Below, one piece after another: positions 14,765 through 64,000 of a DNA stretch of 64,000 nucleotides; position 1 is the stretch's first letter; each line of letters opens with the position of its first letter. Below the pieces are notes generated by a model, which saw only the letters and a list, made by a program, of their open reading frames with translations, was not told the DNA's origin and did no database searches. The position numbers and the translations under genes are program-made. The stretch comes from Paucibacter sp. TC2R-5 (GTDB lineage: Bacteria; Pseudomonadota; Gammaproteobacteria; Burkholderiales; Burkholderiaceae_C). Location: contig NZ_JAJIRQ010000006.1 in assembly GCF_025717605.1 (NCBI RefSeq), positions 130,015 through 194,014 on the forward strand. The letters are read 5' to 3'.

Positions 14765-14784
14765 AGCTTTTGTTCAGCTGAGGC

Positions 14785-47774: not shown

Positions 47775-48401
47775 TCAACGCTGGGCAAAAGCCAGCCGCA
47801 AGGCCAGGCCAATAAAGACCGTGCCGGCCAGCCAATTCAGGCCGCGCTGGGCACTGGTCGAGCGCTTCAGCACGCGGCTGACGGCACCGGCAAAGTAGGT
47901 GATGGAGCCAAACGAGATCAGCGTCGCAACGATGAAGATCAAGCCCAGCTGCGCGATTTGCCAGGCCACAGCACCCTGCTGTGCGTTGACGAATTGCGGC
48001 AACAGAGCCAGAAAGAAGAACACCACCTTGGGGTTGGTCAAATTCATCACCACGCCGCGCCCATACATTTTCCATGGGCTCATGCTGGCTTGGTTTTGCT
48101 CTGCCAGCGGCCCGACCGGCGCACGCAAGACCTGATAGGCCAAGTAGGCCAAATAAGCCGCGCCGGCCAGTTTCAACACCGTGAAGGCGGTGGCCGAGGC
48201 GGCAAACACCGCCGCCAGCCCCAAGGCGATCGCCAGCGTGTGCACCATCAAGCCGGTGCACAAACCCAGCACCACATAAAAGCCGGCACGCCGTCCATGG
48301 GTGGCCGACTGGATCAGCACGAAGACGTTGTCGGGCCCCGGCGTGTAGCCCAAGAGCAGGGCCAGAGTGAAGAAGGTCAACGCGGTTTGGAGGGTCAGCA
48401 T
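47775..48401 (-). CDS. LysE/RhtB-family amino acid exporter
   Basis: A 208-residue inner-membrane exporter with about six segments. The family signature LLLGYTPGPDNVFVLIQSAT near the N-terminus and GVVMNLTNPKVVFFFLALLP in the middle are clear. Members export amino acids or homoserine lactone derivatives; substrate here unknown. The ATG giving MLTLQTALTF fits the family; six extra codons upstream are possible. It ends close to the regulator gene, converging with it. Confidence 0.9.
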   Translation of the reverse strand: MLTLQTALTFFTLALLLGYTPGPDNVFVLIQSATHGRRAGFYVVLGLCTGLMVHTLAIALGLAAVFAASATAFTVLKLAGAAYLAYLAYQVLRAPVGPLAEQNQASMSPWKMYGRGVVMNLTNPKVVFFFLALLPQFVNAQQGAVAWQIAQLGLIFIVATLISFGSITYFAGAVSRVLKRSTSAQRGLNWLAGTVFIGLALRLAFAQR

Positions 48402-48443
48402 GAAAGGCTCAGGGCACAAAGGTCGGCGATTATCTCCGGCAGA

Positions 48444-51400: not shown

Positions 51401-52475
51401 TGAGCGTGCCGACCCACAAAATGCCGCTGCGGTCTTGCATCAGCGCGCCGACCGAGTCCGCAGCCAAGCTGCTTTCCACCGCCGGGAGGTGCTGAAAGCT
51501 CTCGAGCTGCGCCGTCCCCTCGCGCCAACGATGCAGGGCAGGCCGGCTGCCCTGGCCGACCCACATCGCGCGGTCCCGGTCCAGCAGCAAAGCAAAGACG
51601 CGTTCACGGGGCAGCTGCAATTTCTGCGCCAAGTCATCGGGACGTGGCGATGTGCCGTCGCCCGGAACGCGCCAAGTCTGCAGCCCCCCGGCCATGCCTA
51701 CCCATAAACGAGCCTCACCATCCAGCGCCAAGCGGTTGACCATCAGGTCCTCCGGCCTGTAGGAAGAAGCCGACAGCCCGTCCAAGGTGCTGAATTGGCG
51801 GAGCACCTGGCCGCTTGAATCCAGGTGCAACACTTGATGGCCACGGCTCAGCCAGACGCCGCCCTGGCCATCGGCCAGCAAGGCGCGGGCCGCTGTCTTA
51901 TCGGGTGATTTGTCCGGTGATTGGCCCACCGATCCGGCCTGCCAGGGCACAAAACGCCGGCTCGCCTTGTCGAACAAGAGCAGGCCGCCCGTGCTGGCCA
52001 CCCACAGGCGCCCGGGCGCAGCGGGCGCCAAGGCCAGGATGCGACGTTCCGCCAAGCCCATGCCCTCGGGCATGGGCTGGCGCTGAATCTTCTCGCTCGC
52101 CAGATCCATGCGGTCCAAACCGGCGCGGGTGCCGATCCAGAGCTGCCCCTGTTCGTCCTCCAGCAAGGCGTCGATCAAGGAATGGCTGAGCGTGGCGGGC
52201 TGATCCTGGCGCGCATAAAAAGCCTTGATGCGCCGCCCGTCATAGCGCGCCAAGCCCGCCGTGGTGCCCAGCCAGACCAGGCCCTGGCTGTCTTGCACCA
52301 TGCTGAGAACGGCGCCGCCGGGCAGGCCGTCGTCCACCCCCAGTTGCGAAAAGCGCAGACTGTGCAGCGAGTTGGCCGAGGCCGGCGGCATGACACCCAA
52401 ACCGAGCAGTGCAAGCCCGCAAACTAGCTTACACAGCATGCGCAGCGGCGGCCGTAGCCCCAATCGTTTCAACAT
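48444..52475 (-). CDS. Two-component regulator propeller sensor histidine kinase
   Basis: A very large kinase (about 1340 residues). After a signal-type N-terminus, about residues 40-760 hold repeated blades such as MVQDSQGLVWLGTTAGLARY and LLEDEQGQLWIGTRAGLDRM, forming a pair of seven-bladed Reg_prop propellers in the periplasm. A Y_Y_Y domain follows (LSPREAMVSFELSALHF, HAWKLEGFDRDW), then one membrane helix at about 855-875, a coiled coil, a GAF domain (about 930-1090), H-box VAGVAHELNTPIGN with H near 1113-1119, and HATPase boxes DNGRGIS and GSGLGLHIS. No receiver or DNA-binding domain is fused. Start could be TTG 52493, ATG 52475 or ATG 52439. Confidence 0.88.
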   Translation of the reverse strand: MLKRLGLRPPLRMLCKLVCGLALLGLGVMPPASANSLHSLRFSQLGVDDGLPGGAVLSMVQDSQGLVWLGTTAGLARYDGRRIKAFYARQDQPATLSHSLIDALLEDEQGQLWIGTRAGLDRMDLASEKIQRQPMPEGMGLAERRILALAPAAPGRLWVASTGGLLLFDKASRRFVPWQAGSVGQSPDKSPDKTAARALLADGQGGVWLSRGHQVLHLDSSGQVLRQFSTLDGLSASSYRPEDLMVNRLALDGEARLWVGMAGGLQTWRVPGDGTSPRPDDLAQKLQLPRERVFALLLDRDRAMWVGQGSRPALHRWREGTAQLESFQHLPAVESSLAADSVGALMQDRSGILWVGTLMSGVSLADFGGRRFAAYLSLPGDPLSLSNDVVMATAFDGAEHLWVGTYGGGLNRLHLPSGATQRIAPEAMPLTHIKALLREPDGRLWVGGERGLQLFDPKTQRSRTVELHQSTSAGASISSLLKLANGEVWAGSSNGLYRINAKGQVQSFQADAGRAGALNHAIVDALMQDRDGRLWIGTKGGLHLWDPLTETFLRPVQGNADLPNPAALQVYGLRQDAGGRIWLISELGLFELLPKSRTPGAESWQLKSFADVPGMPSGAFESIQDAQFGSIWMGSEHGLTEFQPEQGWARFYPSASHFGGGFNFGASARAVDGTLYFGGKGLQRFRPEALRDNAHAPQVVLSDLRVFNQSLAPEAAPAPASAGLYGASGPPLSLADLGVTGPLHRASKVQLSPREAMVSFELSALHFDKSPLLKHAWKLEGFDRDWIYGQDNVGLATYTNLDAGRYRLMAKAANPDGVWGEARQLLEVQVLPPFWRTWWWNSGLLLLVLLTLGTAYRMRVRGLYRARTQLEQEVVARTQELQQQTLQLAQEKQIALTQTALALQSREAAERARHDITLLSEIGRQLTASLDVGSIQRTLYQQVDELIEASVFGLGLVNWKTRNLAFDFVMHSGEACKPYIRSLAEVEMPAVQAVLQGKELLVDQIERDSRVLNNQEGASRIQLQTGADPAAVHSGIYAPMLLKGKVVGLLFMLSERSHGFTANDLAILSTLGAYAAVALDNADAYRQLQLTQTQLVEQEKMAALGALVAGVAHELNTPIGNSLLMASTLLDRGREFSQHLSQGGIRRSELDQYCQANQESSELLVRSLQSAAGLVTSFKQLAVDQTSEQRRPFELHQLCSEIAQTLGSRLRREGHELRLDVAPGLALDSFPGPLGQVLSNLVLNALIHGLEGRREGLLTLRASALGDAQIKINFSDNGRGISAANLPHVFEPFFTTKLGQGGSGLGLHISYNIVSSVLGGSITVSSEPGAGAQFEIIIPKVAP

Positions 52476-52493
52476 TCGCTCAAATAGAGCCAA

Positions 52494-52818
52494 AGTCCGC
52501 CTCCCAGATTGTTTTCACAAGCATAAACCCAGGTTCGCCGGGATGCAGTTCGGGGCTCTACCGATACCTTGTCAATCAGGGCCACGCAGTGACACCTGTC
52601 GACTCTCGCTGAAAGCTGAAATCACAGCCCCGACAGATCAATTAGTTACGAGGCCGTTCGTCACGGACTTCTGAACCGGCACCTCATTTAATTCTGAACT
52701 CTCGGCAAAACGGTTCTTTCAATTCAGAACTCGCAGCCTCAAAAAGACAAAGACCGCTGTGCAGCGACAGCGTGACTTCGGCCCCTCGAATTCCCACAGA
52801 GCAACACCTTCAAATCTA
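52494..52818. other. Intergenic gap, nothing recognised
   Basis: About 325 bases between the divergent sensor-kinase gene and the LexA-box promoter. No plausible reading frame, terminator or repeat of note. Two similar short words (52690-52700 and 52721-52731) were seen but have no clear meaning. Confidence 0.5.
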
Positions 52819-52860
52819 TAGACAAGTCGACACGAAGCCATATACTGTACATGCATACAG
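52819..52860 (+). promoter_or_regulatory. SOS promoter with LexA box
   Basis: CTGT-N8-ACAG at 52845-52860 is an exact match to the proteobacterial LexA box core. It overlaps a good -10 (TATACT, 52841-52846) placed 16 bases after TAGACA (52819-52824), a one-mismatch -35. LexA bound here would cover the polymerase site, so the two downstream small genes should be induced by DNA damage. Confidence 0.75.
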
Positions 52861-52880
52861 CACTATCGGAGTCTGCGCTC

Positions 52881-53144
52881 ATGATGTTGAACCTTGGAGA
52901 TCCCGCCAGCATCGTCGCTTGGTGGAAAGTCCTGCCCGAACGGCATGGCCCCCAGCTCGAAGCCTTCGAGCGGCTGCGTCCCCAGTTCGCGCAGCCAATC
53001 CGGACAGCCTGGCGAATCATCAAAGCTGATCCAAAGCTCCAATCGATGTTTGAAAAAAGCAAAACCGTTGCGAATGAGATCATGGCGACAGCCTCTACAG
53101 GGAACTACAAAGACGACTCGGCCGATGGGCTGCTTGCGGCTTGA
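52881..53144 (+). CDS. Small protein of unknown function, predicted SOS-induced
   Basis: An 87-residue soluble protein. The ATG at 52881 has GGAG nine bases upstream; ATG 52851 lies inside the LexA box and was rejected. Key stretch: LNLGDPASIVAWWKVLPERH, then QLEAFERLRPQFAQPIRTAW. It is helix-rich, with paired Trp and several Arg, and has no known motif. It is the first gene after a LexA-controlled promoter and lies 47 bases upstream of the next small gene, likely in one operon. A role in DNA repair, mutagenesis or division arrest is an inference from regulation only. Confidence 0.7.
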   Translation: MMLNLGDPASIVAWWKVLPERHGPQLEAFERLRPQFAQPIRTAWRIIKADPKLQSMFEKSKTVANEIMATASTGNYKDDSADGLLAA

Positions 53145-53191
53145 ACAAAGTTTTGCTTGGCGGTTCGGGATCTTCACTGGGAGGTCATGCA

Positions 53192-53404
53192 ATGAAACAA
53201 GTTGAGTTCTGGTATTGGCTGATGCGCAACCCTGTCACAGGTGAGATTGCCCAATCAAGCTGTCGCCTAACTGAGGCCGAAGCACTGAAGCGCGATCCCG
53301 ATGCGTACCCGATCGAGGGAACGTGCCAGGTGCGTGTTCTTCCCAAACATCCTGACGAATGGCTACCCAAGATGGCCCTTGCGGCCCCTTCTTCATACAC
53401 CTAA
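53192..53404 (+). CDS. Small protein of unknown function, second gene of the SOS operon
   Basis: A 70-residue protein with an excellent GGGAGGT ribosome site seven bases before the ATG. MKQVEFWYWLMRNPVTGEIA and RLTEAEALKRDPDAYPIEGT are its key features. It resembles short Burkholderiales proteins of unknown function having the pattern YWYW...TG...MTEAEAL...RIPGT (recalled, not searched). No signal peptide. Co-transcription with the preceding gene is inferred from spacing and the lack of another promoter. Confidence 0.7.
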   Translation: MKQVEFWYWLMRNPVTGEIAQSSCRLTEAEALKRDPDAYPIEGTCQVRVLPKHPDEWLPKMALAAPSSYT

Positions 53405-54001
53405 GCTTGCTCGGGGCAGGGCCAAGGGCTCGCCAGTGTGCTCGCCGGCCACACTCGTGCTGCAGAACGAGGGGGGATCTCCCTGCACTTCCTAGCTCAT
53501 CCAGAGAGCTAGTCTGTTGGCGCCGACGCCGACGCCGAATTAAGCCACTTTGGGCACCACTGCCGACATGCCTTTGAGCCATACGGATTGACTGATAGCC
53601 CGCATAGGAAGTGACGTCTTGGTCACCAGAGACCGCGCACTCAAATGTCGGCACGGTGGCTCAATTCCGGACCGGCGCCAACAGTCCAATGGCTACCGCC
53701 AGGGGTCACGAGTCCGCGATCGAACAGGACTCGAAGTACTCCTCCTGGTGTCATGGAGGAGTCGCCAATGCCGCCATTTGCGTTGACGAAAACCGCCCTG
53801 CTTTGCTGCGCTGCGCTGCGCTGCGCTGCGACATATCCTCTTGTGGAGAGATGTGACCAACGCAGGCTTGCGATCTATAGCGCTATCGTCGCCGATGACT
53901 ACTTCGTGCCCATCACCGACATTCGTTTCCAACCTGCATCAAGCAGCTCGAGACCCCAAAGCTGCCATTCCCCTTGCCCAGTGCATTGATCGATTGCTGT
54001 C
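53405..54001. other. Region between the SOS operon and the last attC site; no confident gene
   Basis: About 600 bases with only short, low-quality frames on both strands. It is the sequence left of the terminal attC, so it may be the remains of the oldest cassettes or the original chromosomal flank. A pentanucleotide tandem repeat lies inside. No attC-like pair of core boxes was found. Confidence 0.5.
53805..53830. repeat. Pentanucleotide tandem repeat (GCTGC)5
   Basis: Five direct copies of gctgc plus one base. It lies in apparently non-coding DNA between the SOS operon and the integron array and could vary in copy number. Confidence 0.8.
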
Positions 54002-54112
54002 GTTCAACGTTGAAGCTGAGGGGCCGGAGCCAGTTGGCCGCGCGAAGCTGAAAACACACAGTCAGCGTAGCGCGGCAATCTGGCGGAGGTCCACTCGATC
54101 GACCGGTTGGGC
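54002..54112 (-). repeat. attC 1 (class A), terminal site
   Basis: Minus-strand R'' GCCCAAC, R' GTTGAAC. The most diverged class A copy, with changes in both inner arms. It overlaps the 3' end of the VanX-like gene. Its R'' differs by one base from the complement of attC 2's R' half, the only imperfect pair of the array. Confidence 0.85.
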
Positions 54113-54802
54113 ATTTGAACCATTCGCCCCAGCTCTTGCCAGCGCGATCATCTCCGGTGTGCACTTTCCGTACAGCGCGAAGTCGCGTCTTCGGTAATAA
54201 GCCCAATACTGATCTCCATACGAAAAGTGCCACCATTCGTGTTCGTAGGGCACGAAGTCTTCGCGCACCATCAGTTGGGTAAGAAGTGCCCGATTGCGCT
54301 TTGCGGTGTCTGAGAGTGACATGCAATTTGGAGTACACAGTTCCGGGGCAACCACGGACCAGTCTTTGATCTCCATCCCGTAGTCGAGCACCTTTCCATC
54401 TCCGTCAACGACTTCAACGTCAACTGCGCCGCCGGTGGAATGAGGAGGGGTATTCATCGTTCCGTCCCAACGAACGACGGGTGACACAAGTATGGTCGCC
54501 TCGTCATGCACAGCTTCAGGTAACAGATGCGGATATCTCGCTCTGACGCGCTGCTTTTCCTGTTCAAAGAGCATGCTCTGAACGCCGTGACTGCGTAGTC
54601 CTTCATAAAGGCGCAGACGATATGGGGCCGGCAACGAGTCTTGCAACCGCAAGAGCTTTCTGTAAACCTCACGACGCACGAGACAGTAATCCGGCTCGGT
54701 TTCGGGACACTCCGGTGGTGGGCCAAAGTTTATTCCCCCGACCACGCGAATGTCGACGAGGTCGTCACCACATTCACAAATTGGGACGTCTTTTGGTTTC
54801 AT
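54062..54802 (-). CDS. VanX/DdpX-like D-alanyl-D-alanine dipeptidase (cassette 1)
   Basis: A 246-residue peptidase M15D-type protein. Zinc ligands H121 and D128 are in PPHSTGGAVDVEVVD and H192 in EWWHFSYG, with catalytic E189 and a substrate-binding Arg near 70 (YEGLRSHG). Known VanX enzymes hydrolyse D-Ala-D-Ala, for vancomycin resistance or for nutrient recycling (DdpX). No signal peptide, so cytoplasmic. It overlaps the upstream DUF1311 gene by four bases; the two form a two-gene cassette. Its last 17 codons (QPVDRVDLRQIAALR) are read from inside attC 1, so the tail is probably not native to the enzyme. Confidence 0.85.
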   Translation of the reverse strand: MKPKDVPICECGDDLVDIRVVGGINFGPPPECPETEPDYCLVRREVYRKLLRLQDSLPAPYRLRLYEGLRSHGVQSMLFEQEKQRVRARYPHLLPEAVHDEATILVSPVVRWDGTMNTPPHSTGGAVDVEVVDGDGKVLDYGMEIKDWSVVAPELCTPNCMSLSDTAKRNRALLTQLMVREDFVPYEHEWWHFSYGDQYWAYYRRRDFALYGKCTPEMIALARAGANGSNAQPVDRVDLRQIAALR

Positions 54803-55191
54803 TGATATCGGAACCCTTGGAGGTGACTCAACCTTAGGCGACCATGCTCCATTTTGCAGAATGCAAATTCCGCCGTCGCGCCCGTTCCACTGCCGAATGA
54901 GAGGCTTCTAAAGCTGCATTCGGCGTCTCGAAACTGCTGCCACTTGGCTTGCGACGATGCAAAGGCCGGTGCTAGTCGAACCACTGGTTCATCAGCGTCC
55001 CGCCCGCGCAAAACGGCGGCAATTCGACTGACCTGAGCAGAAATGACTTTGTCCAATGCCTCGACCTCTCTGCCCAAGCACAAATTCTTCTCAATGGTAT
55101 TCGCTGCGTCCATACATGGCATGGGCTCAACGCCCTGCGCGTATGCAGAGGAAATTTGAAGGGCGACGCCAAACGCGAGAAGCGACTTCAT
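54799..55191 (-). CDS. DUF1311/LprI-like secreted protein (cassette 1)
   Basis: A 130-residue exported protein. Signal peptide MKSLLAFGVALQISSAYAQG, then PCMDAANTIEKNLCLGREVE, ALDKVISAQVSRI, WQQFRDAECSFRS and FCKMEHGRLRLSHL, the cysteine and RDAEC pattern of the DUF1311/LprI family. Some members inhibit lysozyme. Its ATG is four bases after attC 2, leaving no room for a ribosome site inside the cassette. Coupled by ATGA overlap to the VanX-like gene. Confidence 0.82.
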   Translation of the reverse strand: MKSLLAFGVALQISSAYAQGVEPMPCMDAANTIEKNLCLGREVEALDKVISAQVSRIAAVLRGRDADEPVVRLAPAFASSQAKWQQFRDAECSFRSLSFGSGTGATAEFAFCKMEHGRLRLSHLQGFRYQ

Positions 55192-55195
55192 GCAG

Positions 55196-55306
55196 GCCTA
55201 ACGTCGAAGTTGAGCCGTGAGCGGCGGCTGGGCGCGGAAGGCCCAGAATGAAATGGGGGCCTGTAGTGACCAGCTGTTGCGAGTCGGCTCGAACGCAGGG
55301 TTAGGC
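55196..55306 (-). repeat. attC 2 (class B)
   Basis: Minus-strand R'' GCCTAAC, spacer CTGGC-type, L'' like GTTCGAGCCGAC; R' GTTAGGC. R'' matches the complement of the R' half of attC 3, the 5' boundary of its cassette. Confidence 0.92.
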
Positions 55307-55354
55307 CTCACGGCGCGCGACTCGGGACTAGCACTGCGTTTTTCGCCAAGGAGT

Positions 55355-56335
55355 CTAGCTATAAATGTTGCCATAGTCGTGGGTGTATTCACCCGTCTCG
55401 AAGTGGCCAATCCGCTGCGTCCAGCACTTACCAGGCCACAGATAATCGACTCGGAGCTCGGCGGGACGGTAAACCGCGCTGTACACAGTCGATGATTTCT
55501 GATTACGGCGATAGAGCGGAGGCCGCAGGAAGCTTGCGGTCAGATTCTCGAGCGTCATCTCAGGGTCTTCAAGCGCTAGTAGTGCGGTTTGCTGCCGCAG
55601 GACCGTTTCTGTCGTATCTGCTGTTCCTATCGGCGCATGGTGTTCTTGATGGTTTGTACAGACCGCGACCTTTGAGACCGCCGGGATTCGGTCGGGACCA
55701 AGGAACAGCGTGGCGTATTCACCCGACGCATCAAGTAGCGTTACGTTCTGCGAGAGTGCTATCGGTATGCGACAAAGGGCTTCGATGCCTTCGGCCACAG
55801 AACTGCAGGTTTCGAGCACGTAGCGCAGTATCAGAATGATTGAGAAGCCAAGGCCCTGAGCGCGGCTGCCACCAAAGGTTGCGCTTGCAACAAGACCTGC
55901 GGCATTCATGCCATCAAGGCAACCGCCCCACGGCCTTTGAGCCTTGGAGACTACCTCGCGGCCGAACCAGGAAGTCGACTCGAAGTGGCCCGAGACGGTC
56001 TGGATTGGGAAGTCATAGTTTCGGACCAGAGCTGGACCTTCACTCCCAAGCCATACGGCCTGTGTGCAACCGAGCCGCAAGGGTGGCGGCCGATAGTGGC
56101 TGAGAATTTGGTGCGCCAATTCATCATCGCCGACCAGGTTGCAAACATGATCGTAGGAGGTAAGTAGCTCGGGCATGTGCTTGCGCAAGGCTCCCCTGCA
56201 CTCAATCGAACTCGATGGCGATGTTCGGCCGTCTCCTAGGTACCAGCGCTCGGCCTCCTCGCGGCCGGATTGGAATCGCGTCAGCCAGGGTTGCCCCGGC
56301 TGGTCTTCGCGGAGTGCGAGAAAGCGCTTCTGCAT
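55355..56335 (-). CDS. C45-type autoproteolytic acyltransferase/hydrolase (cassette 2)
   Basis: A 326-residue Ntn-hydrolase-like protein. LRLGCTQAVW gives the candidate autoprocessing site before Cys90, followed by PALVRNYDFP, GGCLDGMNAAGLVASATFGG and VAVCTNHQEHH, matching the acyl-CoA:6-aminopenicillanate acyltransferase / linear amide hydrolase family. Such enzymes cut or transfer acyl groups on amides, including beta-lactam side chains and bile-acid conjugates; substrate here unknown. The ATG at 56335 was chosen because in-frame TTG starts upstream lie in attC 3. It has no signal peptide. Confidence 0.78.
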   Translation of the reverse strand: MQKRFLALREDQPGQPWLTRFQSGREEAERWYLGDGRTSPSSSIECRGALRKHMPELLTSYDHVCNLVGDDELAHQILSHYRPPPLRLGCTQAVWLGSEGPALVRNYDFPIQTVSGHFESTSWFGREVVSKAQRPWGGCLDGMNAAGLVASATFGGSRAQGLGFSIILILRYVLETCSSVAEGIEALCRIPIALSQNVTLLDASGEYATLFLGPDRIPAVSKVAVCTNHQEHHAPIGTADTTETVLRQQTALLALEDPEMTLENLTASFLRPPLYRRNQKSSTVYSAVYRPAELRVDYLWPGKCWTQRIGHFETGEYTHDYGNIYS

Positions 56336-56389
56336 GAAGGGAATCCAATGTGAAAAGGCTTGCCACCGACCGCACAAGTGTTGTTTGAG

Positions 56390-56500
56390 GCCTAACGTCA
56401 AAGCTGAGCTGCGAGCAGCGGATGGGCACGAAAGGCCCAGAATGAAATGGGGGCCTGAAGTGGCCAGCCGTCGCGAGTCGGCTCGAACGCCAGGTTAGGC
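56390..56500 (-). repeat. attC 3 (class B variant)
   Basis: R'' GCCTAAC, R' GTTAGGC. Shares arm changes with attC 15 (AAAGCTGAGCTGCGAGCAGC-type left arm). R'' is the complement of attC 4's R' half. Its R'' supplies the stop codon of the cassette 3 gene. Confidence 0.92.
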
Positions 56501-56749
56501 ATCTGGCGCCTTCCTTGCAGCCCGAGCTACTGCTTTGCTTGCTTTTAGCGTGGCCTCTGCTTCTTCCTGAGTTGGGAGGGTTTTGTCCTCAATTAGAGTG
56601 TGCCAGGCGCCGCAGTTGGGGTCTGGGCAACCACATGATGTGACACGGACTGGATGCCGCGTACCACTGCGCTTCTGTATTGCGTTGGTGCGTTCCTCGC
56701 TCTTGATCGTGTCGACGATCGCGCCGGGTCGAAGGAATTTTCCGCTCAT
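56495..56749 (-). CDS. Small Cys-cluster protein of unknown function (cassette 3)
   Basis: An 84-residue protein. A metal-site-like cluster SCGCPDPNCGAWHTLIED lies near the middle, followed by a helical Ala/Lys-rich C-terminus. The stop TAA is part of the attC R'' box. ATG lies 19 bases from attC 4. No family recognised. Confidence 0.65.
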   Translation of the reverse strand: MSGKFLRPGAIVDTIKSEERTNAIQKRSGTRHPVRVTSCGCPDPNCGAWHTLIEDKTLPTQEEAEATLKASKAVARAARKAPDA

Positions 56750-56768
56750 TGGTGATCTTCCTACTGAT

Positions 56769-56879
56769 GCCTAACGTTCGAGCTGAGGGGCCGCAGCCAG
56801 CTGGCCGCGCGGAGCTGAAAATATACAGGCAGCGTAGCGCGGCCAGCTGGCGGAGGTCCACTCGAGCGACCGGTTAGAC
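56769..56879 (-). repeat. attC 4 (class A)
   Basis: R'' GTCTAAC, R' GTTAGGC. Inner arms GCCAGCTGGCCGCGC and its complement form a long stem. R'' is the complement of attC 5's R' half. Confidence 0.92.
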
Positions 56880-56885
56880 CGCATG

Positions 56886-57491
56886 CTATTTGAGGCGCTG
56901 CGTATCGAAGGCAACTACATCTCCTTCCTTGGCTCCCTCGCGCCAAGTCACCGCAAGCAGTGGCTTTGCATCACCCCGAACAATCTTCTCCACAAGTGCT
57001 TTCACGTCAGCAAAGGCGGGCTCACCATTGAACATGGCGTACCACGAAATGATGCCTTGTCTTTCCTCTGAGACGTGAAACACAAAACCAGCACCTCCGA
57101 GAACGCCTGCCGTGCCGCTATAGAGAACTTGGATTTCGCTAGCGCCGTCAGGGCGGGATACAGAGAACTCATACAAGAGCGTGCTGAGCCCTTTCTCCCA
57201 GGGGCTATACCCCGCGGACACTGCCACATCCCCGACTAAAAAGGTTTCGACTATGCAGTGTGAGGATGGGGTGGAGTGCTTCAGATGGAAGTTCTTCTCT
57301 CCTTGAGATTCAAGTTCCTTGGCAACGATAAAGAGCGTTGAGGACTCGAAACGTTCGCTAGCCTTTGCCTTCTCTGGCGGCGCATCTGTGCAACCACCCC
57401 CACCAGGCGCAGCATTCACGGCCGTTCCCATCAAGCAACTGAGAACCACCGAGATTCCGAAGATGCGAAACGCCCGTTCGTACAAATTCAT
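56886..57491 (-). CDS. Exported protein of unknown function (cassette 4)
   Basis: A 201-residue protein with a signal peptide (ISVVLSCLMGTAVNAA cleaved near residue 31), then GGGGCTDAPPEKAKASERFE. Mature part is mixed alpha/beta with two cysteines. Start at the ATG 41 bases from attC 5; longer in-frame readings pass through attC 5 and were rejected. No family recognised. Confidence 0.7.
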   Translation of the reverse strand: MNLYERAFRIFGISVVLSCLMGTAVNAAPGGGGCTDAPPEKAKASERFESSTLFIVAKELESQGEKNFHLKHSTPSSHCIVETFLVGDVAVSAGYSPWEKGLSTLLYEFSVSRPDGASEIQVLYSGTAGVLGGAGFVFHVSEERQGIISWYAMFNGEPAFADVKALVEKIVRGDAKPLLAVTWREGAKEGDVVAFDTQRLK

Positions 57492-57532
57492 GAGTGCCCT
57501 ATTCGATGAAGTCAACGGTCGTGTCACGTGCG

Positions 57533-57643
57533 GTCTAACGTTCGAGCTGAGGGGCCGCAGCCAGCTGGCCGCGCGGAGCTGAAAATACACAGGCAGCGTA
57601 GCGCGGCCAGCTGGCGGAGGTCCACTCGAGCGACCAGTTAGAG
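57533..57643 (-). repeat. attC 5 (class A)
   Basis: R'' CTCTAAC (off-consensus first base), R' GTTAGAC. The two boxes do not match each other, but R'' is the exact complement of attC 6's R' half GTTAGAG. Confidence 0.92.
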
Positions 57644-58000
57644 CGCATTTTCTGCATCGACTCGATGATACGTGGCATGTGACTCGACCCACTTGCCCTG
57701 TTCTCGATGCTGCCAGGATCTTGACTCTGGAACAAACGGGCATAGCTCAACATGGACTGTTTCTGTTTCCTTCCACATGGCCCCCTTGTAACGCAGCTCG
57801 AGAACAAGTACCTCGCCGATGACCTCGTCAACAGTGATGGGCCTATCCAGCTGGACGACCGCCGCAGGTATCGCGTTCTGCCCTGGTATGAACGCGACAA
57901 GCGTACCGAAGTAGCTTTGGCCATTCGGCAACCAGCGCGGCTCGTAGTCGTAGCCCCCGCTAAGACGCAGGCGATCACCGACGGAAAGTGCTTGGGGCAT
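57638..58000 (-). CDS. Cytoplasmic beta-rich protein of unknown function (cassette 5)
   Basis: A 120-residue protein. LSVGDRLRLSGGYDYEPRWL, GTLVAFIPGQNAIPAAVVQL and LVLELRYKGAMWKETETVHV suggest a small SH3-like beta barrel. Stop TAA comes from attC R''. ATG lies seven bases from attC 6. Known families not recognised. Confidence 0.68.
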   Translation of the reverse strand: MPQALSVGDRLRLSGGYDYEPRWLPNGQSYFGTLVAFIPGQNAIPAAVVQLDRPITVDEVIGEVLVLELRYKGAMWKETETVHVELCPFVPESRSWQHREQGKWVESHATYHRVDAENAL

Positions 58001-58007
58001 CGATGCG

Positions 58008-58118
58008 CTCTAACGTTCGAGCTGAGGGGCCGCAGCCAGCTGGCCGCGCGAAGCTGAAAATATACAGTCAGCGTAGCGCGGCCAGCTGGCGGAGGTCCAC
58101 TCGAGCGATAGGTTAGGC
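58008..58118 (-). repeat. attC 6 (class A)
   Basis: R'' GCCTAAC, R' GTTAGAG. R'' is the complement of attC 7's R' half. Confidence 0.92.
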
Positions 58119-58119
58119 C

Positions 58120-58533
58120 TCATTCGGATTGTTTAGCAAGGAAGGCTGAGGTAATGACGGAATAGCCCTTGGGGGAAAGGCTCGACGGAGGATCTGCTCG
58201 CACGGCCTGCATGTCAATTTGACCGTCTGCGGTCTTGCGAACAGCGCGTAGTTTGCATGGAACTAGCGTGAAGAGAACGAGCGCAGCGCCAACCTTGGTT
58301 GCTTGCTCGCGAGCCTCGCGGCCGACACCTTGGCCACCACGCCCAACGAACTGCGCCGAGCCAATTTGGAGGAAGCCGAGGCCAGTGTATTTGGCAACTT
58401 CGGCTTGCAGATCTGCGCACATAAGAACCTGTACGGCGGCCAAAGGTGTAGCCGCCAGCGCCAACGCCACCTCCGCAGCGGTAGCCATTGACTTGTAGTT
58501 CTCTGCAAAGTGCGTATGAGCTTCGATCTTCAT
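58120..58533 (-). CDS. Protein of unknown function (cassette 6)
   Basis: A 137-residue protein: a short N-terminal polar segment, an Ala-rich helical stretch (MATAAEVALALAATPLAAVQ), then FLQIGSAQFVGRGGQGVGRE and a mixed C-terminus. The stop TGA falls one base before attC 6. Start is 68 bases from attC 7. No family recognised. Confidence 0.65.
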   Translation of the reverse strand: MKIEAHTHFAENYKSMATAAEVALALAATPLAAVQVLMCADLQAEVAKYTGLGFLQIGSAQFVGRGGQGVGREAREQATKVGAALVLFTLVPCKLRAVRKTADGQIDMQAVRADPPSSLSPKGYSVITSAFLAKQSE

Positions 58534-58601
58534 GCTTTCAAACTCAACCGGCTCTTGTGTACTCCGGCAATGACGCCGACGTGTGGAGTGGTGTTACTGA
58601 G

Positions 58602-58712
58602 GCCTAACGTCGAAGTTGAGCCGCGAGCGACGGCTGGGCGCGGAAGGCCCAGAATGAAATGGGGGCCTGAAGAGACCAGCCGTTGCGAGTCGGCTCGAAC
58701 GACCGGTTAGAG
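58602..58712 (-). repeat. attC 7 (class B)
   Basis: R'' CTCTAAC, R' GTTAGGC. R'' is the complement of attC 8's R' half GTTAGAG. Confidence 0.92.
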
Positions 58713-58748
58713 CGCATTTCTTCCAACCTCTGAATTCATAACATTTAC

Positions 58749-59033
58749 CTACCGTTTTGCGCCAAGTACAACCGCAGCCCAAAGCGCAAAAAGCAAAAGG
58801 GGAAATGCTACACAAAGCGCGACTTCCAATTTTGCTTTGCCGCGCAGCATATTCTTGCGCCATAGGTAGCCGACATACGCCACGAGCGAAGGAGTGCCAA
58901 CGAATACAGCGAACAGCATACCAAGGCTGGCAATACCAGACCAGGTGCCGGTGGCCCAGTGCACTAGTGCGGCCAGCAATGCACCGTAGGAGGCAGCGAT
59001 TACCGGCCAGACAACTTTTCGCGTGGTCAGCAT
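58749..59033 (-). CDS. Three-helix membrane protein (cassette 7)
   Basis: A 94-residue protein with three hydrophobic segments (VVWPVIAASYGALLAALVHW, SLGMLFAVFVGTPSLVAYVG, CVAFPLLLFALWAAVVLG) and basic loops. ATG lies five bases from attC 8. Earlier in-frame readings run through attC 8. Function unknown. Confidence 0.7.
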   Translation of the reverse strand: MLTTRKVVWPVIAASYGALLAALVHWATGTWSGIASLGMLFAVFVGTPSLVAYVGYLWRKNMLRGKAKLEVALCVAFPLLLFALWAAVVLGAKR

Positions 59034-59038
59034 TTGCG

Positions 59039-59149
59039 CTCTAACGTTCGAGCTGAGGGGCCGGAGCCAGCTGGCCGCGCGGAGCTGAAAATACACAGGC
59101 AGCGTAGCGCGGCCAGCTGGCGGAGGTCCACTCGAGCGACGGGTTAGAC
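59039..59149 (-). repeat. attC 8 (class A)
   Basis: R'' GTCTAAC, R' GTTAGAG. R'' is the complement of attC 9's R' half GTTAGAC. Confidence 0.92.
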
Positions 59150-59150
59150 C

Positions 59151-59675
59151 TCACCGCGCACCCCCTAATGCACGAGGGCTACAAAGGTCGTGGTAGCTCG
59201 GTTGTGCTTGGTTGGGTGACGTGACTGCCTCCAGAACAGCCTGGCGGGACCAGTCCGTTGAACTGTCCGCGACGGCAAACCACGCCGTCGGTGAAAGTTT
59301 GGTGCAGAACGTGTTGCCAGCACGGCCTTGGCGCTTCGAGTTGACTCCGAATTGGCGAAGCATGGCTTGCTCATACTCGTGGTCGTACTGCCAGGAGGAG
59401 TAGACCAGCTTCGAGCTTTTGTTATTTGAGTCAATTCTGAACACGACATAGGCCGTGCCATCTTGCTTGCCGGTCAGGCGGGCCGCCAGTGGCCCACTCA
59501 ACTCGTAGTGCCGAAACTCTCTCGAGTCGGGTCCGCCTGGCAAGAGGTGTTTTGCGCCAGCCTTCTGAAGGAGCTCCTCGAAAGATTGACCAATGCGGAC
59601 CGGGAGCGCTTGATCTGCGGCAGCCGCTGTGTAGGCAGCTGCTATCGCTGTGATGATCCATATCCTCAGGTTCAT
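59151..59675 (-). CDS. Exported protein of unknown function (cassette 8)
   Basis: A 174-residue protein with signal peptide MNLRIWIITAIAAAYTAAAA. Mature part contains VRIGQSFEELLQKAGAKHLL and a single Cys pair (FCTKLS, DLCSPR). ATG lies five bases from attC 9; the stop is just before attC 8. No family recognised. Confidence 0.68.
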   Translation of the reverse strand: MNLRIWIITAIAAAYTAAAADQALPVRIGQSFEELLQKAGAKHLLPGGPDSREFRHYELSGPLAARLTGKQDGTAYVVFRIDSNNKSSKLVYSSWQYDHEYEQAMLRQFGVNSKRQGRAGNTFCTKLSPTAWFAVADSSTDWSRQAVLEAVTSPNQAQPSYHDLCSPRALGGAR

Positions 59676-59680
59676 GTGAG

Positions 59681-59791
59681 GTCTAACGTTCGAGCTGAGG
59701 GGCCGCAGCTAGCTGGCCGCGCGGAGCTGAAAATATACAGGCAGCGCAGCGCGGCCAGCTGGCGGAGGTCCACTCGAGCGACCGGTTAGGC
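59681..59791 (-). repeat. attC 9 (class A)
   Basis: R'' GCCTAAC, R' GTTAGAC. R'' is the complement of attC 10's R' half. R'' supplies the stop of the cassette 9 gene. Confidence 0.92.
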
Positions 59792-60067
59792 ATTTCGAGC
59801 CCGAGCAAACTCGAAGCAGCCTTCGCAAACCCATCGAAATTTTGCGTGATTTTCTGATTCGTCATTCCACTCACCGGCCTGAATCGCACATTTCTCGCAC
59901 TCTTCACACCAGCCCTGTGCCCACGGATCATCGGGAGTTGGAGGATCTGCTGGCGTGAAGAAGCCTAGACCAGATCCGTGTTGAAGATGCTGACAAATGA
60001 AGGCAGGCTTCCTGCGTCCATGAATGGGGCAATCCATGAAGCTTTCGGGCGTCAAAGGATTCGCCAT
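59786..60067 (-). CDS. Cys/His-rich putative zinc-binding protein (cassette 9)
   Basis: A 93-residue protein with a run of metal-ligand pairs: CPIHG near residue 13, ICQHLQHG, WCEECEKC near 54 and VCEGC near 81. This gives two likely zinc sites. No signal peptide. Stop TAA from attC R''; ATG nine bases from attC 10. Might bind nucleic acid or protein; no family recognised. Confidence 0.7.
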   Translation of the reverse strand: MANPLTPESFMDCPIHGRRKPAFICQHLQHGSGLGFFTPADPPTPDDPWAQGWCEECEKCAIQAGEWNDESENHAKFRWVCEGCFEFARARNA

Positions 60068-60076
60068 GAATCAAAT

Positions 60077-60187
60077 GCCTAACGTCGAAGTTGAGCCGCG
60101 AGCGGCGGCTGGGCACGGAAGGCCCAGAATGAAATGGGGGCCTGTAGTGACCAGCCGTTGCGAGTCGGCTCGAACGCCAGGTTAGCC
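60077..60187 (-). repeat. attC 10 (class B)
   Basis: R'' GGCTAAC (off-consensus), R' GTTAGGC. R'' is the complement of attC 11's R' half GTTAGCC. Confidence 0.92.
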
Positions 60188-60739
60188 CGCATTCAGCGGC
60201 TCCTCGGTAAAGCTACTGAGGTCGGCCTCACCATAAAAGGCGTTTACAGAGATCGCAAACGGTGATGGCAAAGTGGTAACCAGCAAGATAGTTCCGTTGC
60301 CGTCGCGAACTTTGATACCACCCACGTAAGTACATGCAGCGAGCGCAGTTTGCGGTGCTTGGCCAGGCACGCCCTGGCACTGCATCATTGGGGAAGATCC
60401 AAGCGCACCTTCGCACCCAATGCCAGGGTCCAACCAGTCCTGAGTGCGGAGCAGATATACCTCGATAGGCGGCGCAAGTTGGAAATCTCGGACTTCCGAA
60501 GCAGAGAAGTGGGCTACAGAGGCTGCGGTGATTGGAAAGACTTCAAACCTGGGTTGCAGCATCTCCTCGTCAGCGTGGATAGAAATCACTTCACCGGTTG
60601 CAAGGGCTATCTGAAGGCCGCCGTATATTTCTGTGGTGCCGGTGGCGCGTGCGCTGACGCCAATGCGAACTACGCCACCCTTGATCGCCGAAAGGGTGGC
60701 GGATACAGCGGCTGGTAGATCAAGCTCGTAGGTGTGCAT
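60182..60739 (-). CDS. Protein of unknown function (cassette 10)
   Basis: A 185-residue, beta-rich protein: MHTYELDLPAAVSATLSAIK, GGVVRIGVSARATGTTEIYG, IEVYLLRTQDWLDPGIGCEG. No signal peptide. Stop TAA from attC R''; ATG five bases from attC 11. No family recognised. Confidence 0.65.
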   Translation of the reverse strand: MHTYELDLPAAVSATLSAIKGGVVRIGVSARATGTTEIYGGLQIALATGEVISIHADEEMLQPRFEVFPITAASVAHFSASEVRDFQLAPPIEVYLLRTQDWLDPGIGCEGALGSSPMMQCQGVPGQAPQTALAACTYVGGIKVRDGNGTILLVTTLPSPFAISVNAFYGEADLSSFTEEPLNAG

Positions 60740-60744
60740 TTGCG

Positions 60745-60855
60745 GGCTAACGTCGAAGTTGAGCCGCGAGCGGCGGCTGGGCACGGAAGGCCCAGAATGA
60801 AATGGGGGCCTGAAGTGACCAGCCGTTGCGAGTCGGCTCGAACTACAGGTTAGAG
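60745..60855 (-). repeat. attC 11 (class B)
   Basis: R'' CTCTAAC, R' GTTAGCC. R'' is the complement of attC 12's R' half GTTAGAG. Confidence 0.92.
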
Positions 60856-61548
60856 GGCACTTCCGACCTCCCGCATGAACTTGGATACGACCACGGACGC
60901 ATCTTTCGGTCTTGCCTGAAGTAAGCAGTGCGGCGCCTCGATTTGTACCACTTCTACCGACGGCAGTAGCACCTTGATGTGCGCAGCCGCGCTCTTGGGT
61001 ACAAGGCGATCCTGCATGGCACGCAAGTAAATGCAGGGCATCCGAACCCGAGCCAATGCCGCAGACACATCTACTGCCAGGACAGCGCGCACCCGCGCTC
61101 GCAAGACTTCGGATGAAACTTGCCCAACTGCCCCGGCAACTGCGCGCCGCAGCGTTGGACTACTGAACCTCCCGAGTAACATTTGACTGAGCGCAACTGA
61201 CGGCATGCTCCGGAATGGAACAAGAGGAAGCAAGGCAGAGGCGCCGGACAAGCTCGGACGCGGATTACGAGCAAAGGTGCAGCAGAGAACCAATCCCTTC
61301 AGCGAAGGCGGAGATTCCGCCGCGAGCGCAATGGCAATAGGTCCAGAGAACGACTCACCCAGAAGTACATAGGGCTCGTTAACCGGGAGCAGCTTACGAA
61401 CAAAGTCCTGAAGCTCCTCGTACCCGAGCGCAACGTCTCTCGGATAGCGAACCACTTGGACTTTGACCTGCCCGTGGAAAGCCTCGACCAACGGATCGAA
61501 TAGGTCACCGGTTCCGTCCAACCCGGGAAGTAGAACCAGTGTCAGCAT
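60850..61548 (-). CDS. Alpha/beta hydrolase (cassette 11)
   Basis: A 232-residue alpha/beta hydrolase. Oxyanion region LLPGLDGTGDLF at the N-terminus, nucleophile S66 in VLLGESFSGP, acid D180 in LRAMQDRLVP and H207 in IEAPHCLLQ complete a normal triad. It is cytoplasmic with no signal peptide. Substrate unknown; esterase or thioesterase activity is typical. Stop TAA from attC R''; ATG four bases from attC 12. Confidence 0.85.
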   Translation of the reverse strand: MLTLVLLPGLDGTGDLFDPLVEAFHGQVKVQVVRYPRDVALGYEELQDFVRKLLPVNEPYVLLGESFSGPIAIALAAESPPSLKGLVLCCTFARNPRPSLSGASALLPLVPFRSMPSVALSQMLLGRFSSPTLRRAVAGAVGQVSSEVLRARVRAVLAVDVSAALARVRMPCIYLRAMQDRLVPKSAAAHIKVLLPSVEVVQIEAPHCLLQARPKDASVVVSKFMREVGSAL

Positions 61549-61552
61549 TGCC

Positions 61553-61663
61553 CTCTAACGTTGAAGCTGAGGGGCCGCAGCCAGCTGGCCGCGCGGAGCT
61601 GAAAATATACAGGCAGCATAGCGCGGCCAGCTGGCGGAGGTCCACTCGAGCGACCGGTTATGC
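61553..61663 (-). repeat. attC 12 (class A)
   Basis: R'' GCATAAC (off-consensus), R' GTTAGAG. R'' is the complement of attC 13's R' half GTTATGC, another private variant shared by one cassette's two ends. Confidence 0.92.
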
Positions 61664-61697
61664 CTCACTGGCGCCGCCCCGTGGTTTCCGGTTTTGA

Positions 61698-62057
61698 TTA
61701 GAAGACTTCGTTCCCTACCACCGCCCACGCGAACTGGATAGCGCGGCTTGCCTGATAAGGATTGTTCTGAGAACCCGACGCCGAACAAACCCTCTGTATT
61801 CCTGCCGTGAAGGCAGCGTTTGCGCCTGAGCCTTCCGCCTCTAAATGCGCTTCCATGGATTTGTGCGTAATCTTGAAGATTGGGACACCGTACCCATACG
61901 ACATGTAGAACTGCGGATTCTCCTTGGGGCCGGCATAGGCCTCTGTGAAGACGCTCATGCACGCTGCGCGGAGCGCGTTGCTTCGACGACGAGCCCATAC
62001 TATGAATCCGGCTGCTGACGCGATCAGGAGAAGTCCGACGATTAACAGTGGCTGCAT
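61698..62057 (-). CDS. Single-helix membrane protein (cassette 12)
   Basis: A 119-residue protein with an N-terminal membrane helix (LLIVGLLLIASAAGFIVWA) and basic RRRS after it, then a soluble domain with FTEAYAGPKENPQFYMSYGY. ATG 39 bases from attC 13; longer in-frame readings run through attC 13. No family recognised. Confidence 0.65.
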   Translation of the reverse strand: MQPLLIVGLLLIASAAGFIVWARRRSNALRAACMSVFTEAYAGPKENPQFYMSYGYGVPIFKITHKSMEAHLEAEGSGANAAFTAGIQRVCSASGSQNNPYQASRAIQFAWAVVGNEVF

Positions 62058-62096
62058 AAAATTGGCGCGGTAGGCAAGAGCTCCGGTTTTCGTGAG

Positions 62097-62207
62097 GCAT
62101 AACGTCGAAGTTGAGCCGCGAGCGGCGGCTGGGCACGGAAGGCCCAGAATGGAATGGGGGCCTGTAGAGGCCAGCCGTTGCAAGTCGGCTCGAACGAATG
62201 GTTAGGT
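62097..62207 (-). repeat. attC 13 (class B)
   Basis: R'' ACCTAAC, R' GTTATGC. R'' is the complement of attC 14's R' half GTTAGGT. R'' supplies the stop of the cassette 13 gene. Confidence 0.92.
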
Positions 62208-62804
62208 TGCACCGCATGACAGCAGAACATTTCTTTGCTTCAGATGCTCGGTGACAGTGCCCTTCGGGGCGTGAATGCGGTATTCGTAACTCATGCCTCT
62301 GGCTGCCTTGTAGCTCTCAGCAGCCTGATTGACCGTTCCACACGCCTCGTTGTTCTTCTTGAGGCGCGCTTGAGCCTCTAGCAGCAGCAACAAAACTTGG
62401 GTTCTCTCTGCTGGTGATGCCGCGACTGCTTGTGACGAGAGGCCCTTCTGCAAATTTGATTCTGCTTTTGCATTGAATTCGTTGATGCGGGCGGGTAGGC
62501 CCTCCGAGCCACCAAGCTCAGCAACTCGCGAGGAGAAGATGCGAGATTGCTGAAATGTTGGTGACGCAATGAACTCACCGTATTCAAGCTGCACAACTGC
62601 TAGGTGAACGAATTGATCAGTTGAGGCCAAGCCTTCCATCGACTCCCGCAAGAGGCGCTCTGCTGGAACCGGCCTGCCATCCTTGAACAGTTCAACCGCC
62701 TGCCAATATTTCTTCCAGGGGTCGCTGGTTTCAGGCACGAGAGCGGCTGAACAACCGGCCAAGACCGCGACAAAGACGAGTACGGCATATATGCGCTTAA
62801 GCAT
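62202..62804 (-). CDS. Lipoprotein of unknown function (cassette 13)
   Basis: A 200-residue protein with lipoprotein signal MLKRIYAVLVFVAVLAGCSA (Cys18). The mature part is helical: WKKYWQAVELFKDGRPVPAE, VLLLLLEAQARLKKNNEACG. Repeated helical pairs could be TPR-like. Stop TAA from attC R''; ATG 14 bases from attC 14. No family recognised. Confidence 0.72.
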   Translation of the reverse strand: MLKRIYAVLVFVAVLAGCSAALVPETSDPWKKYWQAVELFKDGRPVPAERLLRESMEGLASTDQFVHLAVVQLEYGEFIASPTFQQSRIFSSRVAELGGSEGLPARINEFNAKAESNLQKGLSSQAVAASPAERTQVLLLLLEAQARLKKNNEACGTVNQAAESYKAARGMSYEYRIHAPKGTVTEHLKQRNVLLSCGAT

Positions 62805-62818
62805 TTTCTTTTCCTGCA

Positions 62819-62929
62819 ACCTAACGTTCGAGCTGAGGGGCCGCAGCCAGTTGGCCGCGCGGAGCTGAAAATATACAGGCAGCGTAGCGCGGCCAGCTGG
62901 CGGAGGTCCGCTCGAGCGACTGGTTAGCC
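62819..62929 (-). repeat. attC 14 (class A)
   Basis: R'' GGCTAAC, R' GTTAGGT. R'' is the complement of attC 15's R' half GTTAGCC. The cassette 14 gene reads through the whole site. Confidence 0.92.
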
Positions 62930-63396
62930 GGCTCGAATACGTGACGCTCGCCGTCAATCAGAATGAAATCCGGTATGCCGGCTTTGAATAGAACAACGTT
63001 TCCGTGCTCAGCGCGAACGGGGAATAGCAATACTGTGGCACTGGCGATGCTAGGCGGCTCGGAAAATGAGAACCCACTAAATCGCCCCAAATATTTTCCT
63101 GCTTCGGAAAATATGAGCAACCGATTTGTAGCGCGGCCGGCAGGACCCCATACGGTGGAAAGGAAGCCGATTTGCAAATGTGAACTGTCTTCCGTTGAGA
63201 TGGTTCCGACGCGTGTGAATTGTTCTTTTGAGAATCCATCTTCCCAAGATCCTGCGGCAGCAGCGCGAGCCTCTCGATAAAGTAGCTCGGCTTTGGCTCC
63301 ACCAGTAACCATTCGCTCGCCGACTATGCCCGCATGCGTGCCTCGGGCAAAGAGCAGCAGAAGAAGCGCGGCAATCATTGTGGCGAATGCTTGCAT
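62821..63396 (-). CDS. Exported protein whose C-terminus is encoded by attC (cassette 14)
   Basis: A 191-residue protein with signal peptide (ATMIAALLLLLFARGTHA). The native-looking part ends near FILIDGERHVFEPAN; the next 34 codons, beginning QSLERTSASWPRYAACIFSA and ending APQLER, are attC 14 sequence read in frame, with the stop TAG in the R' box. The gene either uses this tail or has lost its own stop. ATG seven bases from attC 15. No family recognised. Confidence 0.68.
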   Translation of the reverse strand: MQAFATMIAALLLLLFARGTHAGIVGERMVTGGAKAELLYREARAAAAGSWEDGFSKEQFTRVGTISTEDSSHLQIGFLSTVWGPAGRATNRLLIFSEAGKYLGRFSGFSFSEPPSIASATVLLFPVRAEHGNVVLFKAGIPDFILIDGERHVFEPANQSLERTSASWPRYAACIFSAPRGQLAAAPQLER

Positions 63397-63403
63397 TGGA
63401 GAC

Positions 63404-63514
63404 GGCTAACGTCAAAGCTGAGCTGCGAGCAGCGGATGGGCACGGAAGGCCAAGAATGAAATGGGGGCCTGGAGTGACAAGCCGTTGCGAGTCAGCTCGA
63501 GCGCAGGGTTGGGC
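63404..63514 (-). repeat. attC 15 (class B variant)
   Basis: R'' GCCCAAC, R' GTTAGCC. Shares arm changes with attC 3. R'' is the complement of attC 16's R' half GTTGGGC. Confidence 0.92.
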
Positions 63515-63515
63515 G

Positions 63516-63962
63516 TCATCGCGGCGTGGCTATGAATTTGACTTGGCAGGTGTACCCGCCACGTTCGGACTCCAGGTTCTCGGAGACGAATATGTGATAT
63601 CGACCGGAAGTGGTGAACACAAGTTCGTCCATCCTGGATTCTCCCGTCCAAGGAGTCGCGCTGAGCAAGGAAGGGATTTGAGCCGACTTAGCCCGGCCAA
63701 ACTCTGCTGTTGTCATGAGTTGATACACATCTCCTGGCGGCGAACCGACAACAAGCATATATGTGGTTCGATCTGACTCGCGTCCGATCGAGAGTTCCTG
63801 TCCGTGGCCAGGGCCGAGCGAAAGACGAAGGGTTTCCCCCGCATGAAGCGTCTGAGGTGAACACGAAAGAACCCGAGGGTCGTGCTTCCAGCGCTCCAGC
63901 GCAACAGCCATCGGCACCGTTGCAAGGAACGTGATCGCCAATGACCATCGGAGCTTTTTCAT
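63516..63962 (-). CDS. Exported or anchored protein of unknown function (cassette 15)
   Basis: A 148-residue protein with signal or anchor MKKLRWSLAITFLATVPMAV. Mature part is beta-rich: LHAGETLRLSLGPGHGQELS, DELVFTTSGRYHIFVSENLE, ending GGYTCQVKF. The ATG was chosen because a TTG three codons upstream lies in attC 16; only three bases separate the ATG from attC 16. No family recognised. Confidence 0.68.
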   Translation of the reverse strand: MKKLRWSLAITFLATVPMAVALERWKHDPRVLSCSPQTLHAGETLRLSLGPGHGQELSIGRESDRTTYMLVVGSPPGDVYQLMTTAEFGRAKSAQIPSLLSATPWTGESRMDELVFTTSGRYHIFVSENLESERGGYTCQVKFIATPR

Positions 63963-63965
63963 GAC

Positions 63966-64000
63966 GCCCAACGTTCGAGCTGAGGGGCCGCAGCCAGATG
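63966..64000 (-). repeat. attC 16 (class A), cut by the window edge
   Basis: R' GTTGGGC (minus strand) and the first class A arm are visible. The site and its cassette continue to the right. Confidence 0.85.

Follow-up and report, generated by a model that had tools for sequence, protein, structure and literature searches.

A 25-cassette integron as probable cargo of a Tn7-like transposon upstream of groES in Paucibacter sp. TC2R-5

Long integron arrays are usually regarded as chromosomal fixtures and short resistance arrays as mobile, and the cassette array at the right-hand end of a 64,000-nucleotide stretch of Paucibacter sp. TC2R-5 raises the question of which description fits it. This stretch (the window; C42:130015-194014) belongs to a genome of 5.13 Mb in 45 contigs, labelled G000, and was compared within a set of 18 genomes of the genus, in which G009 and G002 are the sister genomes of G000. 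Window coordinates equal the C42 position minus 130014, and values above 64000 denote the rightward continuation of C42. A preliminary description of the window had read the array as the distal end of a sedentary chromosomal integron. We conclude, with a probability of about 0.87, that its repeats are attC sites of a 25-cassette integron and that this integron is carried by a Tn7-like transposon of 33.4 kb, the insertion site of which is ~220 bp upstream of groES.

Fifteen complete attC-like repeats at 54005-63511, each spanning 105 nt from YAAC to GTTR or 111 nt with three flanking nucleotides per side, separate genes on the minus strand, just as had been noted. To their right follow eight more 105-nt sites, the first of which (63969-64073) is truncated by the window end, together with a 127-nt variant (66219-66345; 35.9 bits with the covariance model described below) and a 52-nt short site (68857-68908; 39.4 bits). 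The full array thus comprises 25 sites, of which 23 have a length of 105 nt, and reaches 68908, with the window holding its distal part. A 17-nt core pattern, with up to two mismatches allowed, was found 17 times in the window against 0.09 expected, and 16 of these matches fall inside the array. The preliminary description had called the sites uniform in length and sequence; the length indeed holds, the 15 window repeats being 105 nt each and all 23 sites of that length aligning without gaps, but the sequence does not, given that the 23 sites divide into two families (14 of type A and nine of type B, in irregular alternation) with mean identities of 94.1% for A-A, 91.0% for B-B, and 58.2% for A-B. 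All window sites are listed here on the plus strand, which is the bottom strand relative to the cassette genes. Type A includes attC 1, the last of the array (54005-54109), attC 4 (56772-56876), attC 5 (57536-57640), attC 6 (58011-58115), attC 8 (59042-59146), attC 9 (59684-59788), attC 12 (61556-61660), attC 14 (62822-62926), and the truncated attC 16 (63969-64000), and type B includes attC 2 (55199-55303), attC 3 (56393-56497), attC 7 (58605-58709), attC 10 (60080-60184), attC 11 (60748-60852), attC 13 (62100-62204), and attC 15 (63407-63511).

Both families keep one common hairpin through compensatory changes; among 29 consensus pairs in the alignment, 10 are preserved with changes on both sides. 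The plus strand folds better than the minus strand in 23/23 of the 105-nt sites, with z-scores of -2.6 to -7.3 (60 shuffles per site), and this conserved bottom-strand hairpin bears out the identification of the repeats as attC. For the check with an attC covariance model that had been suggested, a model was made here from the array's own sites; it produced matches in all 18 genus genomes at an E-value of 1e-4 (hairpins are expected to match more weakly on the mirror strand too, and some of these matches may be counted in the totals for each genome). Rfam yielded none in 48000-64000 and none near the integrase gene.

That gene, intI, had been placed to the right on the basis of attC orientation, and it lies there in the predicted orientation, uninterrupted, on the plus strand at 69421-70488, 5.4 kb beyond the window. 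It scores 547 bits with NCBIfam PRK15417 (1.9e-164; cut-off 435) and 473 bits with TIGR02249 (4.2e-142; cut-off 265), and the encoded protein shares 70% identity with IntI1, including the Arg, His, Arg, His, and Tyr positions that we take to be catalytic. A candidate attI was located at ~69205, with AAGTT motifs on the cassette strand at 69205, 69237, and 69258, the first of them at the first-cassette junction. Because intI and the candidate attI are on the right, the window cassettes are the distal ones of a long array, as had been proposed, and being the most distal are probably also the oldest. A LexA-like box, CTGTACAAAACAACAG, at 69313, ~110-120 nt before the possible intI starts, matches what is presumably the LexA consensus, and an exact match to the LexA pattern occurs upstream of intI at seven of 12 relatives' loci; through this box, intI is probably induced by DNA damage.

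Beyond intI, five minus-strand genes at 70858-76610 follow in the order tniQ, tniQ, tnsC, tnsB, tnsA. Pfam domains above the cut-off comprise TniQ (in two proteins), TniB, rve, and Mu-transpos_C. Compared with solved structures, TnsB matches TnsAB and TnsB chains (best, 5.2e-53), and it keeps the Asp, Asp, and Glu columns, presumably the catalytic ones. The array, intI, and the tns genes are enclosed in a block of 33,429 bp (52597-86025) bounded by the inverted ends TGTCGA[CT]TCTC, namely, the left terminal inverted repeat TGTCGACTCTC (52597-52607, plus strand) and the right one TGTCGATTCTC, read inward from 86025, where it ends. The two copies of a target-site duplication, ACACC, flank the block at 52592-52596 and, outside the window, at 86026-86030. 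A scan of 125 kb detected the exact end motif at these two places only, with ACACC beyond each, and the two copies form the single 11-nt inverted pair (up to one mismatch) with equal 5-bp flanks across both flanking regions. Within the left end, three AGTTCTGAACT-like sites at 52667-52731 are candidate TnsB binding sites. The right, tnsA-side end is ~220 bp upstream of groES. Ends of the TGT...ACA type, a 5-bp target duplication, and a tnsA side next to a conserved gene are the features of a Tn7-like element.

Relatives provide the view of the locus without the integron. In both sister genomes, the counterpart of the window kinase gene (48444-52493) is followed by ~3 kb and then by groES-groEL, with no integron there, and G000 ceases to be homologous to these genomes at 52566, the homology returning at 86064, within the region upstream of groES. 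An independent Tn7-like element in G268, with a TnsB 49% identical to the present one, has the sequence TGTCGATTCT ~190 bp upstream of groES, and its first 10 bases are the same as those of the right end here. Across both ends of the present block and the right end of the G268 element, AGTTCTGAACT-like sites, the motif being palindromic and counted on both strands, gave 11 matches against a maximum of six in 30 mononucleotide shuffles. In G144, the tnsA side of a more distant element (L200; TnsB 34%) likewise faces groES; by eye, this element carries a different repeated end motif and large ATPase-like cargo genes.

The explanation that survives best beside our own, although we consider it unlikely, is the one favored in the preliminary description, extended by a chance event: a sedentary chromosomal integron alongside which a Tn7-like element later inserted. 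The length of the array, its genus-wide attC types, and cassettes mostly of unknown function would all fit such an integron, and so would the ~370-bp gap that separates intI from the first tniQ, in which resemblance to the DNA behind the intI copy of G009 is limited to the initial 177 bp. However, a left transposon end placed in this gap was considered and rejected, the true end sequence having no exact copy there; the tns genes and the array are both enclosed by the ends, which have equal 5-bp flanks; and two sister genomes lack an integron at the groES locus. The sedentary character of the integron is thus a further part of the preliminary description that did not stand, in view of an array and intI enclosed by Tn7-like inverted ends with a target duplication, a locus empty of integron in G009 and G002, and the closest intI relative detected in the genus at a different chromosomal place.

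Less probable still is a larger genomic island built by several events, such as insertion sequences and recombination, in which the end motifs are coincidental. The ~3 kb of DNA present at the groES locus of the sister genomes is missing from G000, the tnsA side contains a possible fragment of a GH16 gene together with unrelated genes, and 13 of 300 shuffled versions of the flanking regions gave a similar end pair, so that the pair alone is not rare enough to carry the case. This modest evidence becomes strong because the G268 element shares the end sequence near groES and AGTTCTGAACT-like sites occur in three ends; the recurrence of the first 10 right-end bases at a similar distance from groES in an independent element, the shared end-repeat motif, and ends located where those of a Tn7-like element are expected all argue against coincidence. 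That the repeats are of another kind altogether, e.g., palindromic interspersed repeats and not recombination sites, is scarcely credible, as the two sequence families and the lack of an Rfam match are set against a nearby intI, positions between successive genes, compensatory changes, folding strand asymmetry, and cassettes common to arrays and species.

Besides the shuffled end pairs, several results weigh against an integron carried by a Tn7-like transposon with a groES-upstream site. An exact empty site was not detected in any genome, and insertion is shown by the joined flanks only. For the G268 element, no left end was detected either in the part of L043 that follows the tns genes on the right (up to two mismatches) or in the 40 kb beyond (up to one mismatch). 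Among 16 other Tn7-like loci (14 genomes and two plasmids), a groES neighborhood was seen in two, those of G268 and G144, and the misses are not firm, most stretches covering at most 20 kb on the tnsA side and that of G202 just 3 kb. Of the 15 of these loci scanned with the attC model (G202 excluded), one, that of G013, has a single site, scoring 54 bits and lying ~15 kb from the G013 TnsB. The TnsA-like endonuclease falls 0.1 bit under the Pfam cut-off (26.4 against 26.5 bits), and for the Tns proteins tested, no NCBIfam family exceeded its cut-off. Around attI (L009:15300-16200, including little of intI), no sigma-70 consensus promoter was detected. Finally, TnsC (L010:116-1093) is missing the nucleotide-binding-loop lysine that is kept in four of four aligned relatives, and the transposon may therefore no longer be able to move.

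With these points weighed, an integron carried as cargo of a Tn7-like transposon remains the reading we prefer. Under it, IntI would recombine the folded bottom strands of attC sites with attI, leading to insertion or excision of cassettes, and TnsA, TnsB, TnsC, and the two TniQ proteins would have brought the entire platform to the groES site in one piece, with one or the other TniQ protein presumably recognizing the groES region. The integron looks movable rather than chromosomally fixed. The closest relative of this intI detected in the genus is a remnant in G009 (L041:9469-10168, G009:C5) whose middle is deleted and whose two pieces are 97-98% nucleotide-identical to it, accompanied by the same attC types at an unrelated chromosomal site; in G000, the counterparts of the genes beside it belong to a different contig and have no adjoining integron sequence. 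Given that host genes of G000 and G009 are less similar (82% for the kinase and 96% for groEL), recent transfer is likely. The possibility that the G009 copy is part of the same transposon was rejected, as L041 contains no end motif with up to one mismatch.

Exchange of single cassettes is visible as well. Over 387 nt, the LprI gene in cassette 1 shares 95% identity with a cassette from a second array elsewhere in this genome, and cassette 24 matches a G008 cassette over 358 nt with 97% identity; in G008, the counterpart of the array-flanking kinase has just 70% protein identity. The second array (L172; C41:249691-259508) contains attC sites resembling both types A and B, and its own intI is a relic containing a stop codon (C41:248851-249030); its cassettes could be served in trans by the uninterrupted IntI.

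Pfam domains above the cut-off were found in five of 23 cassette-strand open reading frames (ORFs) tested: Peptidase_M15, LprI, AAT/C45 acyltransferase, alpha/beta hydrolase, and FMN reductase. No resistance gene was recognized among these 23 ORFs. All genes between the window attC sites are on the minus strand. Cassette 1 holds two genes at 54062-55191 with no attC between them, gene a (54799-55191; LprI-like) and gene b (54062-54802), which encodes a D-Ala-D-Ala dipeptidase-like protein with a Peptidase_M15 domain that scores 27 bits on the VanX model against a cut-off of 320. Cassette 2 encodes a hydrolase or acyltransferase of the AAT/C45 family (55355-56401), and cassette 11 encodes an alpha/beta hydrolase (60850-61548). 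No family was assigned to the ORFs of cassettes 3 (56495-56749), 5 (57638-58000), 6 (58120-58533), 8 (59151-59675), 9 (59786-60067), and 15 (63516-63971), nor to those of cassettes 4 (56886-57494), 7 (58749-59036), and 12 (61698-62183), the starts of which are uncertain. The same applies to cassette 10 (60182-60784), with an uncertain start codon and a listed start inside an attC site, and to cassette 14 (62821-63396), the ORF of which runs into attC 14 at its 3' end, and the ORF of cassette 13 (62202-62957; start uncertain) matched no family above the cut-off.

No convincing gene was found in cassettes 18, 23, and 25, which are three copies of a 290-nt family (65189-65477, 68105-68393, and 68909-69204; L009:11704-11992, 14620-14908, and 15424-15719) that is also present in three other genus genomes (G002, G005, and G010) and whose two ends, by eye, form imperfect inverted repeats. 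Neither a structured RNA (z-score of -0.92, with 38 of 200 shuffles folding equally well) nor a protein (alignment gaps that are not multiples of three) was accepted as the content of this family. On the tnsA side of the transposon, the cargo includes a 1547-aa NACHT protein (L010:6894-11537) and an uncharacterized gene (L090:8-694), which are possibly involved in defense; assignment of the NACHT protein to an annotated defense system was rejected, the PADLOC E-value being just 0.0072. Also inside the transposon is a GH16 glycosidase gene (L010:4481-4924) with an incomplete domain match (28-154 of 175), perhaps a fragment.

What the locus offers is a long array with no recognized resistance gene and an IntI fairly close to IntI1, placed here between Tn7-like ends, as an intermediate for studying the capture and spread of integrons; it also suggests that Tn7-type elements use the region upstream of groES for attachment. 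A broader proposal is that an entire integron platform of lineage type, with its intI, attI, and 25 cassettes, moves from one chromosome to another as the cargo of a Tn7-like element that has an unreported groES-upstream attachment site; this we advance tentatively, at somewhat less than even odds. If this is true, the capture step that has been proposed for class 1 integrons would have a natural counterpart here, one whose IntI is fairly close to IntI1, and long cassette libraries would have a route between species.

That Tn7 and Tn7-like elements can carry integrons has been described in PMC8649781, according to which 10% of 6,549 delimited Tn7-like transposons carry an intact or partial integron, with 2,334 cassettes in which qacE and dfrA1 predominate. 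Neither a Tn7-like attachment site upstream of groES nor a long lineage-type array on a Tn7-like element was found in the open-access literature, among the matches listed; groE gave no match in PMC8649781, PMC10293859, and PMC11406308, nor did groS or groL in the first two, and groESL appears in another context in PMC11915867. Class 1 integrons, according to PMC8618304, arose when a Tn402-family transposon captured a chromosomal integron of Burkholderiales, and PMC7784347 ranks a chromosomal IntI from Paucibacter sp. as the complete protein next closest to IntI1 in the set analyzed there, at 72%.

Among known systems, the chromosomal integrons of Paucibacter and relatives resemble the present one in their IntI homologues (65-72% identical in the genus) and in attC model matches, which extend to 18 of 18 genomes. 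In contrast, a TnsB match of any kind occurs in six of the 18, and in the other five TnsB-bearing genomes, TnsB is away from any listed intI match, on other contigs or, in G004, ~180 kb distant. Tn7-like elements of Burkholderiales (G268, G046, G011, and the Comamonas plasmid pNFYY023-1) have TnsB proteins 47-50% identical to this one and the same TnsA-TnsB-TnsC-TniQ order, as far as read, with TniQ assigned by eye from ORFs in the three genomes and by annotation in the plasmid. The G268 element shares the groES-proximal end sequence too, but all four carry other cargo, with no attC of the present type in the stretches searched. Class 1 integrons of the Tn402 family are likewise associated with a transposon with TnsB/TnsC/TniQ-type genes; the IntI described here is 70% identical to IntI1, short of the near identity that defines class 1, and the element differs in having a TnsA-like gene, two TniQ genes, a location other than a res site, and a long array with lineage-type attC sites. 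Tn7 carries the class 2 integron and inserts beside a conserved gene, and the present integron is likewise carried by a Tn7-type transposon that inserts in such a place, but with an IntI related to IntI1 at the level just given, 25 cassettes without a recognized resistance gene, two TniQ proteins, and a site that is upstream of groES instead of beside glmS. The combination of an integron with a Tn7-like transposon is of an already known kind, to which this locus adds two features that did not turn up among the open-access papers listed, an unusually long array of lineage type and a site near groES.

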